DNA of 37,881 nt from Rhodocyclales bacterium (GTDB lineage: Bacteria > Pseudomonadota > Gammaproteobacteria > Burkholderiales > Rhodocyclaceae): positions 1 to 37,881 of the forward strand of contig JACRLX010000006.1 of NCBI GenBank assembly GCA_016235165.1, in the 5' to 3' direction. Positions 28,679 to 37,678 of this stretch are shown one piece after another. The notes beneath the pieces are model-generated. The model had not been told where the DNA came from. It worked only from the letters and a program-made list of their open reading frames with translations, and ran no database searches. The first letter of the stretch is position 1. Every line of letters begins with the position of its first letter. Made by a program: the position numbers and the translations under genes.

Positions 28679-29881
28679 CTACTCCGTGCGCAGGGCCTCG
28701 ACCGGGTCGAGCTGCGCGGCGCGGCGCGCCGGCAGCACGCCCGCCGCCAGGCCGATGGCGGCGGCCAGCACCTCGGCCAGCACCACGAACGACAAGGGCG
28801 TATGCACCGGCAGCGCCGGCAGGAACAGGCCAATCAGTTGCGCCAGGCCGATGCCGAGGACGAGGCCGACGGCGCCGCCGATCGCCGCCAGGGCCACCGC
28901 CTCGCCGAGGAAAAGGCCGAGGATGGTGCGCCGCCGCGCGCCCAGCGCCACCATCAGGCCGATCTCGTTGGTGCGTTCGGTGACGGCGATGGTCATGATG
29001 GTGACGATGCCGACGCCGCCGACCAGCAGCGAAATGCCGCCCAGCGCGCCGACCGCCATGGTCAGCACGTCGAGGATGGAGGACAGCGTTGTAAGCATCT
29101 CCTCCTGGCTGATGATGGTGACATCCTCGCGGCCGTGGCGGTCCTTCATCACCTGCTTGATCGCCGCGACCACCGAGGCGGCGGGCACGCCCTCGGCGAC
29201 GGCGACGTCGATCTCGTTGAGGCCCTCGCGGTTGAACAGTTCCAGCGCCCGCGCCGCTGGCACGAAGGCGGTGTCGTCGAGGTCGATGCCGAGGAACTGG
29301 CCCTTGCCCGCCAGGACGCCGATGACGCGGAATTGCAGGCCGCCGATGCGCACCCGCGCGCCGAGCGGGTTTTCCGCGCCGAACAATTCGTTCTTCAGCT
29401 TCGGCCCCAGCACCACTTGTGCGCGCGCGCTGCCGGCTTCCTCGTCGGGCAGGAAGCTGCCGCTCATGACCCGGCCCTTGAATACCGTCAGCATGTCGGG
29501 GCCGACGCCGTAGATCGATACGCGGCGCACGCGGCCATTGCCATGCACCTCGGCATTGCCGAAGGCGCTGGGCGTCACCGCCACCACGTTGGGCAGGCGC
29601 TTCAGCACTTCGGCATCATCCAGCGACAGCGGCCGCGCGCTGCTCGGCAGACCGGACAGCGCGCCGCCGCCGGTCTTGGTCTTGCCCGGGTGCACGCCGA
29701 TCACATTGGTACCGAACTGGGTGAACTCGCCCAGCACGTAGCGGTGGATGCCCTCGCCGATCGAGGTCAGCAGGATCACCGCCGCTATGCCGACGGCGAT
29801 GCCGAGCAGGGTCAGGAAGCTGCGCAGGCGCTGGGCGGCGATGGCGCGGATGGCCAGGGCGAGGAAATCGGTGATGCCCAT
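28679..29881 (-). CDS. MacB-like ABC transporter permease 2
   Basis: A 400-residue permease of the MacB/FtsX family: one N-terminal helix (about 20-45, FLTLLGIAVGIAAVILLTSIG), a large periplasmic MacB core (about 50-260), then three C-terminal helices (about 275-385) ending ARRAAQLDPVEALRTE. The ATPase is encoded separately. It is the last gene of the adaptor-ATPase-permease-permease operon and resembles permease 1, so the pair probably forms a heterodimer or two alternative exporters. The frame extends to 29971 but the homology begins MGITDFLALAIRAI, so I chose 29881. No ribosome site is seen; the upstream 347 bases are occupied by structured elements. Confidence 0.9.
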   Translation of the reverse strand: MGITDFLALAIRAIAAQRLRSFLTLLGIAVGIAAVILLTSIGEGIHRYVLGEFTQFGTNVIGVHPGKTKTGGGALSGLPSSARPLSLDDAEVLKRLPNVVAVTPSAFGNAEVHGNGRVRRVSIYGVGPDMLTVFKGRVMSGSFLPDEEAGSARAQVVLGPKLKNELFGAENPLGARVRIGGLQFRVIGVLAGKGQFLGIDLDDTAFVPAARALELFNREGLNEIDVAVAEGVPAASVVAAIKQVMKDRHGREDVTIISQEEMLTTLSSILDVLTMAVGALGGISLLVGGVGIVTIMTIAVTERTNEIGLMVALGARRRTILGLFLGEAVALAAIGGAVGLVLGIGLAQLIGLFLPALPVHTPLSFVVLAEVLAAAIGLAAGVLPARRAAQLDPVEALRTE

Positions 29882-29938
29882 GTCAGTTGGTCCGTGATAC
29901 CGACAGATGCAAAGCGCCGTTACGTAGGGCATCCTCGG

Positions 29939-30042
29939 CGCCAAGGACGGCCGGTGTCCGGCTCCGTCCATGTCCTCCGAGCCTGGCTTCGCTAGGCTCT
30001 CCCCCTTTACTTACCGGATCCGGACACCGGCCATCCTTGGCG
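29939..30042 (-). repeat. Structured element, copy 1
   Basis: Outer arms 29939-29961 and 30020-30042 are complementary over 23 bases with one mismatch. An inner hairpin lies at 29979-29999 (9-bp stem with one G-T, three-base loop). Read on the minus strand the order is: outer arm, AAGTAAAG, purines ending GGAG, inner stem with GAA loop, GACATG, GGACGGAGC, outer arm. The unpaired motifs match those of copy 2 on the plus strand, while the stem sequences differ but remain paired. Confidence 0.9.
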
Positions 30043-30088
30043 GGATGCGCTTCTGCCTTGCAACCGCAACCCTGCAAGGGCGTCACCG

Positions 30089-30194
30089 GATCGGGAGGGT
30101 GGGGCGTTCTGCGCAGCGAAGTAAAGAAGGAGGCGTCGGCCGAAGGCCGGCGCCGGGTGACATGAGCGGAGCAGAATGCCCCGTCGTCCCGATC
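30089..30194 (+). repeat. Structured element, copy 2
   Basis: Outer arms 30089-30112 and 30171-30194 are complementary at 20 of 24 positions. The inner hairpin at 30132-30154 has a 10-bp stem (one mismatch) and GAA loop. Order: outer arm, AAGTAAAG (30119-30126), AAGGAG, inner stem, GACATG (30159-30164), AGCGGAGC, outer arm. It is the inverted counterpart of copy 1. The GGAG directly before a hairpin recalls REP sequences acted on by RAYT (TnpA-REP) proteins, but the conserved 3' motif goes beyond that pattern. Confidence 0.9.
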
Positions 30195-30228
30195 GCGCGC
30201 CAGCCGAAACTCCGGAGAGGGTTTCATC

Positions 30229-31437
30229 CTAATGCTTCATCAGCGCCTGCACCGGATCGAGGCGTGCGGCACGCCGCGCCGGCATGATGCCGAACAGGAG
30301 GCCGGTGGAGAGCGCCGTGCCCAGCGCCGCAAGCACCGCCCAGTCCGGCGGATAGGCGGGAAATACCGGGTACATCTGGCGCAGCATGAATGCACCGAAG
30401 AGGCCGAGGCCATAGCCGGTGAAGGCGCCGAACAGCGAGAGCATCGCCGCTTCGGCCATGAAGGCGTCGCGGATGGTCGCCCCGCGCGCACCCAGGGCCT
30501 TGAGCAGGCCGATCTCGGCGGTGCGCTGGGTCACGGCGACCAGCATCACGTTCATCACCAGGATGCCGGCCACCGCCAGGCTGATCGCGGCGATGCCGGC
30601 CACGGCGGCGGTCAGCGCGCGCAGCAGCTTGTCGAAGGTGGCGAGCACCGCATCCTGGGTGATCACCGTGACATCCTCCTCGTTGCCATGGCGGGCCTTG
30701 AGCAGCGCCAGGACCTCGCGCTTGACCACCTCGATGTCGTCGCGACTCCTGGCCTCGATCAGGACGCGGAACAGGGTGTTGGTGTTGAACATGCTTTGCG
30801 CCAGGCTCACCGGGACGAAGACCACTTCGTCGGTGTTCATGCCCAGGCCCTGCCCCACCGATTTGAGCACGCCGACCACGCGCAGGCGGCGGTCGCCGAG
30901 GCGGATCAGCTCGCCCACGGCCGGGCGGCCGCCGAAGATTTCCTCCTGGATCTTCGAGCCGATCACCGCCACCGGCGCACCGCGATTCCAGTCCGCCTCG
31001 GGCAGGAAGCGCCCCTGCGCCATCCTGAAGCTGCGAATGTCGAGATAGGGCGCGGCGGTGCCGGCCACCACGACTTCGCGCAGGCGGCCGTTGGCGTTGA
31101 TCTCGGAATTGCCGGCCGCCAGCGGCGCCACGCGGCGCACCGAGGGCAGGCGCGTGAGGGCGAAGGCATCGTCCACCGTGAGGTCGCGCGGCGTGGTGGT
31201 CAGCGCATTGGCCGGGTTGAAACCGCCGGTGGCGGAACGCCCGGGCAGGACGATGACCAGGTTGCTGCCCAGCGCCGAGAACTGGTCGACCACGTAGCGC
31301 CGCGCGCCGTCGCCCAAGGCGGTGAGCACCACCACGGCGGCGACGCCGATGGCCATCGCCAGCACCGAGAGCCCGGTGCGCAGCGGATAACCGCCCGCCG
31401 CGTCGCGGGCGAAGCGCAAAACGTCGGCGGTGCGCAT
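30229..31437 (-). CDS. MacB-like ABC transporter permease 1
   Basis: A 402-residue permease with the MacB/FtsX layout: N-terminal helix (about 20-42, GLSVLAMAIGVAAVVVLTAL), periplasmic core (about 50-265), three C-terminal helices (about 280-390) and the terminal ARRAARLDPVQALMKH. The periplasmic part includes NLVIVLPGRSATGG and GNSEINANGRLREVVVAGT, as in export permeases of this type. It lies 7 bases downstream of the ATPase gene. It is clearly paralogous to permease 2 downstream but divergent in sequence. Likely function: mechanotransmission-type export of a hydrophobic or peptide substrate with the adaptor encoded upstream; the substrate is unknown. Confidence 0.9.
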   Translation of the reverse strand: MRTADVLRFARDAAGGYPLRTGLSVLAMAIGVAAVVVLTALGDGARRYVVDQFSALGSNLVIVLPGRSATGGFNPANALTTTPRDLTVDDAFALTRLPSVRRVAPLAAGNSEINANGRLREVVVAGTAAPYLDIRSFRMAQGRFLPEADWNRGAPVAVIGSKIQEEIFGGRPAVGELIRLGDRRLRVVGVLKSVGQGLGMNTDEVVFVPVSLAQSMFNTNTLFRVLIEARSRDDIEVVKREVLALLKARHGNEEDVTVITQDAVLATFDKLLRALTAAVAGIAAISLAVAGILVMNVMLVAVTQRTAEIGLLKALGARGATIRDAFMAEAAMLSLFGAFTGYGLGLFGAFMLRQMYPVFPAYPPDWAVLAALGTALSTGLLFGIMPARRAARLDPVQALMKH

Positions 31438-36625: not shown

Positions 36626-37678
36626 TCAGGCCGCGACGAGATACTCCGCCGCCGGCTCGCGCGCAACCGGCGGGGCAATCCGGTCAACCGGGCTGATCAC
36701 TCCGCGCCCGCCCCGGTTCAGGACATGGGTGTAGATCATCGTGGTCTTGACATCCGAGTGTCCGAGCAATTCCTGCACGGTACGGATGTCGTAGCCCCCC
36801 TCCAGCAAATGGGTCGCGAAGGAATGGCGCAACGTATGCGGCGATGCCGGCTTGTCGATCCCCGCCGCGACGGCCGCGGCGCGTATCGCCCGCTGCACGG
36901 CCTGGTCGTGCACATGGTGGCGACGCACCGTGTCCGAGCGCGGATCGACCGACAGTTGCCCGGTGGGAAACACGTACTGCCACATCCATTCGCGTGCCGC
37001 CCCCGGATATTTGCGATCCAGCGCGAAAGGCAGATGAACCTCGCCATGCCCAGCCGCCAGATCCCGCACATGGAGTTCGCGGGCCCGCTGCAACTGCGCC
37101 AGCAGCCCCGGCGCCAGGCTATCCGGCAGCACCGTGACGCGATCCTTGAGGCCCTTGCCATCGCGCACCAGGATTTCGCGCCGCGCAAAATCGATGTCCT
37201 TCACCCGCAGGCGCAGGCATTCCATCAAGCGCATGCCGGTGCCGTAAAGCAGGCGCCCGATCAAGGCATGCACGCCATGCAGACGATCCAGCAGGACCGC
37301 CACCTCGACCGCGGTAAGCACCACCGGCAGGCGCGGCGGCCGCTTTGCCGACTCGATACCGTCCAGCCAGGGCAGTTCGACTTCCAGCACCTCGCGGTAG
37401 AGAAACAACAGCGCCGCCTTGGCCTGATTCTGCGTCGATGCCGCCACATTGCCCGCGACGGCGAGGTGCGTAAGAAAGGCCTCGACCTCGACGGCCCCCA
37501 TTTCGCGCGGATGGCGCTTGCCAAAATGTCGGATAAATCGTCTAATCCAGTCCAGATATGCCTGCTCGGTACGCAGGCTGTAGTGCAGGAAACGTATCCG
37601 GCCCCGCACCTGGTCCAGCAGCCGGGGCGCAGCCTCCGAATCAACGACTGACGGAATCGACGACATTTTAGGCCCCAC
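36626..37678 (-). CDS. intI: Integron integrase (IntI-type tyrosine recombinase)
   Basis: A 350-residue tyrosine recombinase closely resembling integron integrases. Catalytic residues are complete: Arg150 (GTGMRLME), His281 and Arg284 ([13 protein letters not shown]), His307 (LLGHSDV) and Tyr316 (TMIYTHVL). The IntI-specific insertion (about 211-238; [20 protein letters not shown]) that contacts folded attC sites is present, as are [20 protein letters not shown] and RRHHVHDQ. This sets it apart from XerC/D. Cassettes normally lie on the 5' side of intI, that is rightward from 37679, where the window shows only 66 bases before an IS element. No attC-like site is seen on the left. Met5 is an alternative start. 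Confidence 0.93.

Follow-up and report, generated by a model that had tools for sequence, protein, structure and literature searches.

Inverted nested-hairpin pairs form a dispersed REP/MITE-like repeat family, with bridging open reading frames at operon junctions in Sulfuritalea and a relative

Results

The paired hairpins in the 37,881-nucleotide stretch of Rhodocyclales DNA analyzed here (the window) are one unit of a dispersed repeat family, as its structure and covariation show. We think it probable that the unit is a non-autonomous mobile element with ends that act as single-stranded DNA (ssDNA) hairpins, an enzyme acting in trans, siting at operon junctions, and a bridging open reading frame (ORF) that keeps translation going. 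Presence and absence of the unit at exact operon junctions was observed among related genomes, and the bridging ORF is present in Sulfuritalea and in one related genome.

The two facing elements that had been predicted from the sequence were both found in place. The A half (29939..30042, minus strand; model score, 104.1 bits) is a nested hairpin with a 28-bp outer stem, the internal-loop motifs AAGTAAAG..GGAG and GGACATG, and an inner hairpin with a GAA loop. The B half (30089..30194, plus strand; 98.5 bits) is an inverted copy of the same element, with a different stem sequence and the same loop motifs. The GAA-capped inner stems, followed by GACATG and CGGAGC, were seen as described in the original prediction; the outer stem, put there at about 23 bp, is longer and has 28 paired columns. 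The conserved loop motifs AGTAAAG-GG-GGAG (A half, 29999..30011, minus strand) and AGTAAAG-AA-GGAG (B half, 30120..30132, plus strand) were the two occurrences of AGTAAAG-N{2,8}-GGAG in the window, for which 0.01 was expected. Folded as RNA, the A half (minus strand) reached −69.9 kcal/mol (z, −8.9) and the B half (plus strand) −67.5 kcal/mol (z, −8.2), and 0 of 200 shuffled sequences were as stable in either case. A scan of positions 29000 to 31000 against Rfam gave nothing near the gathering score, the subthreshold matches being mostly microRNA hairpins.

The halves are separated by a 46-bp spacer (30043..30088) and flanked by two tails. The upstream, B-side tail (30195..30227, minus strand) starts with ATGAAAC, and the downstream, A-side tail (29883..29938, minus strand) ends with CAACTGA. 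An ORF of 114 codons (29883..30227, minus strand) spans the entire unit and approximates the extent of the insert; its ATG lies 1 nt past the TAG of the upstream host gene (30229..31437, minus strand), and its TGA lies 1 nt ahead of the ATG of the downstream host gene (28679..29881, minus strand; the start at 29881 was set by junction comparison). Both host genes encode MacB/FtsX-type permeases, with HlyD-like and ABC-ATPase genes upstream of them on the same strand. The ORF had no Pfam match at an E value of ≤1.

An exact-pattern search of the source genome gave 17 rows, which resolved into 12 true copies and one chance site (locus L008), and a covariance model (R1) was built from the 12 copies. 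At an E value of ≤1, R1 gave 27 matches in the source genome, of which 17 (16 strong and 1 weak) lay on the loop-bearing strand and 10 were reverse-strand shadows of the same places. The 17 loop-strand matches formed eight inverted pairs and one copy, on contig C13, with a partner interrupted by an insert; the source genome therefore contains nine units. Spacers were 46 bp long in six and 45 bp long in one of the seven fully scored pairs. By eye, the inner hairpin is interrupted in two units of the source genome (C39:32722-32869 and C13:269884-270065) by a similar sequence of about 70 bp, which has hairpins of its own (GGCTTGCC..GGCAAGCC and GCGGAGCAGTGCTCCGC).

Among the 12 copies, 96.1% of outer-stem cells and 92.5% of all stem cells were paired, and changes on both sides were found in 20 of the 28 outer pairs and 7 of the 9 inner pairs. 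The covariation score was 0.638, compared with 0.216 in shuffles, and fell to 0.04 to 0.14 when partners were slid; none of 500 shuffles reached this score or any of the five observed covariation measures. The motifs AAGTAAAG, GGAG, and GACAT were invariant. In the inner stem, column 45 to column 67 was always G-C, and the next two positions were either Watson-Crick pairs or tandem G·A/A·G. The prediction that the stems differ in sequence yet stay paired was borne out, and a covariance-model search, which had been proposed as a check, found further copies in the source genome and at public loci.

A pattern scan of the GTDB representatives gave at least 120 loci, and among those listed, 118 of 120 were confirmed by the covariance model, the exceptions being L063 and L094. 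The carriers among these loci were mostly Burkholderiales (Rubrivivax, Hydrogenophaga, Rhizobacter, Rhodoferax, and Paucibacter), together with Rhodocyclales (Sulfuritalea and Sulfurisoma) and some Xanthomonadaceae (Luteimonas, Pseudoxanthomonas, and Lysobacter). The same 120 loci contained 63 pairs, with 46 bp as the commonest spacer (17 of the 63), and 60 copies without a visible partner, some of them cut by the end of the locus. The distribution was patchy: the element was found in 5 of the 150 genomes examined across the order and in 14 of 25 from the genus, including the source genome, which is probably Sulfuritalea-like. Among the 150 candidates scored per genome, three genomes had 127 (G165, “Ca. 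Nitricoxidireducens bremensis”), 90 (G160), and 88 (G153, Luteimonas terricola) matches at an E value of ≤0.001, counts that may include reverse-strand shadows. Copies are related, and copy counts do not equal independent events.

Some arrangements departed from the common one. Locus L052 (3052-4553) had two facing halves 1.5 kb apart, perhaps forming one unit, and the end of an ORF that resembles BrnA/CopG by eye adjoined its A half. Unpaired copies in L036, L078, L134, L145, L146, and L152, from two metagenome-assembled genomes (Rubrivivax bin.222 and Burkholderiales JACPVA), shared a similar upstream flank with GAGTCAG, possibly another repeat. In several copies, the left-end TGAAACC appeared by eye to pair with GGTTT in the spacer.

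Filled and empty sites were compared at two operon junctions. The permease junction of the window was filled in the source genome and in 3 of 25 readable relatives, one of these three having a shortened copy; it was empty in 11 relatives, with −1 to 12 nt from stop to start, and in 11 it held other inserts of 118 to 225 bp. The covariance model found no clear copy in these 11 other inserts, with one match at an E value of 0.02 (L285). At the ureB/ureC junction, for which the genes were named by Pfam, the element was present in seven Sulfuritalea genomes, including the source genome, with filled-site lengths of 314, 365, or 386 bp, and absent from eight. All eight empty sites had zero bases between the flanks and read CTGAA/ATG in seven cases and CTGTC/ATG in one, where the slash marks the junction; the filled sites read TTGAA (TTGAG in one)/ATGAA... 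and ended in .../ATG.

The unit ends followed a common form in Sulfuritalea and G165, CTGA/RATGAAAC ... GCAACTGA/N-ATG, in which the host stop lies just ahead of the element ATG or overlaps it as ATGA. In 42 left ends, the four bases before the element ATG were CTGA (15 ends), TTGA (7 ends), CTAG (6 ends), TTAG (2 ends), or others (12 ends), and the four bases at the right end were CTGA in 23 of 40 units. Although CTGA was common at both ends, the left and right words often differed, and there was no clean target-site duplication. The CTGA at the left end is not the host stop everywhere, because the longest upstream frames ended in an overlapping ATGA in 24 of the 44 units coupled upstream; at ureB/ureC, the Pfam-confirmed upstream frame likewise ends in a TGA that overlaps the element start (ATGA). 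The fixed CTGA word may be a stop-codon target, though not clearly so.

To describe the ORFs, 49 units were taken from Sulfuritalea, including the source genome, and from G165, and 47 of these were oriented by arm sequence. Start codons could be ATG, GTG, TTG, or CTG. Upstream coupling was defined as the stop of an open frame of ≥80 codons falling no more than 12 nt ahead of the ORF start or 1 nt past it, and downstream coupling as the start of a frame of ≥80 codons within 12 nt of the ORF stop. An ORF ran through the unit from B to A in 46 of the 47 oriented units (antisense control, 22 of 47), and it was coupled at both ends in 38 (antisense control, 3 of 47); 72 of 141 frames were open, versus 31 of 141 in antisense. 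The direction of transcription is uncertain for some units, since three (L315, L318, and L349) also coupled in antisense. For all 49 units, which represent 36 distinct loci, the counts were 48 with a through-ORF and 40 coupled at both ends. At the upstream junction, the 44 coupled units included 24 with an ATGA overlap and 18 with stop-N-ATG; at the downstream junction, the 40 units included 17 with TGA-N-ATG and 16 with an overlap offset by 1 nt (ATGA, one GTG counted in).

The candidate of a conserved small protein was rejected, given that the copies use different frames and that the window ORF lacks a Pfam match. Relative to the ORF, GACA fell in the three possible frames in 27, 12, and 1 of 40 units, and because the frames differ between copies, it is openness that is kept and not a protein. 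Such ORFs, of about 101 to 151 codons in different frames, could be misannotated as small proteins.

Bridging is not a trait of the whole family. Outside Rhodocyclales, among the loci listed, 29 of 37 pairs had a through-ORF in one or the other orientation, and 4 of 37 were coupled at both ends in either orientation. Gene context there was scored by a codon-phase count: the gaps that held the 37 pairs were codirectional in 18 cases, convergent in 19, and divergent in 0, and the unpaired copies comprised 17 in codirectional gaps, 9 in convergent gaps, 2 in divergent gaps, and 3 within a called gene.

Translational coupling has been described as nearly lost at an intergenic distance of about 20 nt (PMC10666635), and an unbridged insert of about 300 nt should therefore be polar. 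At the permease junction, 9 of the 11 inserts other than this element (L285 to L305) also carried an ORF that bridges stop to start; bridging may thus be a condition of survival, a general need of any insert at a coupled junction, and not a design of the element. That reading is plausible because of the collapse of coupling at about 20 nt described in PMC10666635. Five of these inserts (L287, L289, L298, L300, and L305) are alike by eye. What may remain particular to the element is its consistent siting at such junctions in Sulfuritalea and G165.

When one arm of a stem mutates, the resulting mismatch reads as G·T on one strand and as A·C on its complement. If selection acted on double-stranded DNA or a cruciform, or if the arms were converted neutrally, both mismatches would therefore be equally frequent on the loop-bearing strand. 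In the outer stems, that strand had 281 G·T and 40 A·C among the 150 best of 168 model hits, with G·T:A·C counts of 85:11 for minus members of pairs, 93:6 for plus members, and 93:14 for single copies. A model-free recount, which was anchored on the loops and maximized Watson-Crick pairs only, gave 364:42 over 205 distinct arm pairs, 169 of which leaned to G·T and 2 to A·C, with 34 ties; when one hit was taken per public locus, the count was still 190:20 (108 loci). Each half is thus under stem selection that is specific to its own strand.

Wherever coupling reveals the direction of transcription, the B half runs antisense to the mRNA, with L315, L318, and L349 as exceptions. On their own strand, the B halves had G·T:A·C counts of 47:2 (20 units from Sulfuritalea relatives) and 26:0 (21 units from G165), or 73:2 for both sets joined; the A halves had 32:3 and 32:2, respectively. 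Since the antisense B halves keep G·T, the strand selected for B is not the mRNA strand, and the simplest reading is that the selected form is folded ssDNA rather than a read-through RNA or a cruciform. Where the orientation of the copies is known, counting G·T against A·C on each strand gives a simple statistic that helps to separate selection at the DNA level from selection at the RNA level.

These counts bear directly on the possibility that the halves are structured RNAs, each transcribed, as two divergent RNAs or as structure in the mRNA. The tolerance of G·T(U), the covariation, and the inner stem's alternation of tandem G·A with Watson-Crick pairing are all RNA-like, and separate divergent RNAs from each pair are possible. 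Against this, the B halves antisense to the mRNA keep G·T over A·C on their own strand (47:2 and 26:0), Rfam gave no match in 29000 to 31000, and, as a weak point, a scan for sites of the sigma-70 type only found none in 29850 to 30260, where 0.1 was expected by chance. An RNA origin of the conserved fold is therefore unlikely, and the suggestion in the original prediction of an undescribed structured RNA family is disfavored.

The second alternative is that the hairpins are REP doublets (REPINs) moved by a Y1 transposase of the RAYT type. Several features fit: GGAG stands directly 5′ of a hairpin that is strand specific, the doublets are inverted and intergenic, many carriers have Y1 frames of RAYT-like length (about 225 to 300 amino acids), and TnpAREP has been described as binding single-stranded REP on one strand only (PMC8266576). 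A Y1 transposase was found in 16 of 24 carrier genomes. However, 50 Y1 loci, comprising all 21 matches of one set and 29 of the 45 of another and each taken with about 1.5 kb on either side, contained no element, and two of the three highest-copy genomes, G153 (88 matches) and G165 (127 matches), had no match to PF01797. Furthermore, four carriers of the genus lacked Y1 (G169, G175, G179, and G186; assemblies 83, 90, 86, and 99% complete, respectively), 10 of 11 noncarriers of the genus had it, and the enclosing 28-bp stem is absent from the REPs described in PMC3733652. A RAYT/Y1 link was rejected on the strength of the 50 element-free loci and the carriers without Y1, and mobilization by a RAYT is improbable. 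The prediction of a REP/BIME-like mobile element accordingly stood as to dispersal, intergenic location, inverted pairs, patchy distribution, and exact empty sites, and failed as to the RAYT partner, for which the proposed check of RAYT flanks returned no element at the 50 Y1 loci. The only Y1 match of the source genome (L018, 57-488, plus strand) is an IS200-type TnpA of 143 amino acids at a contig end and is element free.

An integron-related site, in which the hairpins would be substrates of IntI, is very doubtful. The window has an integron integrase gene (36626-37678, minus strand; TIGR02249, 476.7 bits), IntI acts on folded ssDNA of attC sites, and intI was found at an E value of ≤1e−60 in 25 of 32 carriers tested. 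Yet the base rate in the order was 67 of 150, 4 of 7 noncarriers also had intI, 15 intI loci (about ±1.5 kb) contained no element, and the carrier G160 (90 matches) had no match better than 4e−23; the link was rejected as not specific to carriers. The contig ends about 200 bp past the intI start, and an attI site and a cassette array are expected beyond that start.

A neutral long palindrome without function, in which template switching or gene conversion would keep the arms paired, is strongly disfavored and the least credible reading: stem sequences do vary widely among copies and long near-perfect palindromes can homogenize their own arms, but the loop motifs stayed invariant in 12 copies while the stems changed, and strand-symmetric homogenization should yield as many A·C as G·T, not 364:42.

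A search for other partners covered the neighboring genes of L036 to L155, L156 to L160, and the window, where no shared gene stood out; the largest cluster, a dehydrogenase-like family judged by eye, was present at six loci. The window unit had no match in the plasmid and phage sequences searched, and the element had one match in viral_contigs. An autonomous copy may exist elsewhere, outside the neighborhoods examined.

Discussion

A non-autonomous mobile element, 314 to 386 bp long at one locus in Sulfuritalea, is the reading we favor. Its ends, the inverted nested-hairpin copies, would be recognized as folded ssDNA, each on its own strand, by an enzyme acting in trans; the mover would accordingly be of the kind that handles ssDNA hairpins, and the movement would be by transposition or site-specific recombination. 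In Sulfuritalea and the related genome, the element would insert between operon genes, where the stop codon of the first meets the start codon of the second, and maintain an uninterrupted reading frame that links these two codons. To judge from the sequence, the bridging ORF is probably translated: ribosomes that finish the first gene would reinitiate within the element and once more at the second gene, so that bridging would preserve translational coupling and the open frame would spare ribosomes a long untranslated hairpin. If this is right, highly structured inserts of about 300 bp are tolerated in coupled operons by being translated through.

More tentatively, the element might be a specialist of operon junctions, in which a non-RAYT ssDNA-hairpin enzyme targets CTGA-N-ATG-like sites and the element itself supplies a start that can overlap the host stop (ATGA), a frame free of stops, and a TGA at its end, with translation passing through. 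If that were true, the element would be a translation-transparent transposon. On the favored reading, the family offers a concrete, testable set of putative ssDNA hairpins.

Among the open-licence papers searched, we found no description of this element, and we regard the family as a new REP/MITE-like one, set apart from the BRE repeats of Bordetella by description only. Presence and absence at orthologous sites, one of the criteria for a MITE, was found at the permease and ureB/ureC junctions. The BRE repeats, as described in PMC3110155, are likewise dispersed, mostly intergenic, GC rich, found in Betaproteobacteria, and suspected to be mobile; they are about 90 bp long, partly tandem, and highly conserved in primary sequence, and they might overlap the present family.

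REP, REPIN, and BIME sequences are similarly described as short palindromes that are intergenic, occur singly and as inverted dimers, and form lineage-specific families (PMC3733652 and PMC3116915), the inverted dimers having spacers of 20 to 100 bp (PMC3733652). The present family shares the inverted dimers in intergenic regions (63 pairs among the 120 loci listed). In PMC3733652, however, REPs are given as simple hairpins of 20 to 40 bp with a GTAG or CGTC tag, and the CGTC families appear there, too, with no associated transposase; here each half is about 104 nt long, has GGAG before its inner hairpin and two motifs in the internal loops, and is enclosed by a 28-bp stem, and no RAYT association was found at the 50 Y1 loci.

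The ends of IS200/IS605-type elements such as ISDra2 have subterminal ssDNA secondary structures, as here, and ISDra2 is described as inserting 3′ to the short fixed target TTGAT (PMC2806898). In a similar way, CTGA, TTGA, CTAG, or TTAG preceded the left end of our units in 30 of 42 cases, and 23 of 40 right ends closed with CTGA. A fixed word on the left that is repeated at the right end resembles ISDra2-type insertion and, by this analogy, may offer a lead to the mechanism. Unlike in IS200/IS605 elements, the hairpins are inverted rather than on the same strand, and no transposase gene lies inside. A MITE of Geobacter, Chunjie, is reported, from the title of its description, to insert into an operon and leave the operon undisturbed. 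The ERIC/RU and Rickettsia palindromic elements are likewise small mobile sequences able to stay open frames, and published accounts place them within genes as in-frame fusions (PMC2759123 and PMC10969869), whereas the present element carries a separate ORF between the stop and the start of two operon genes.
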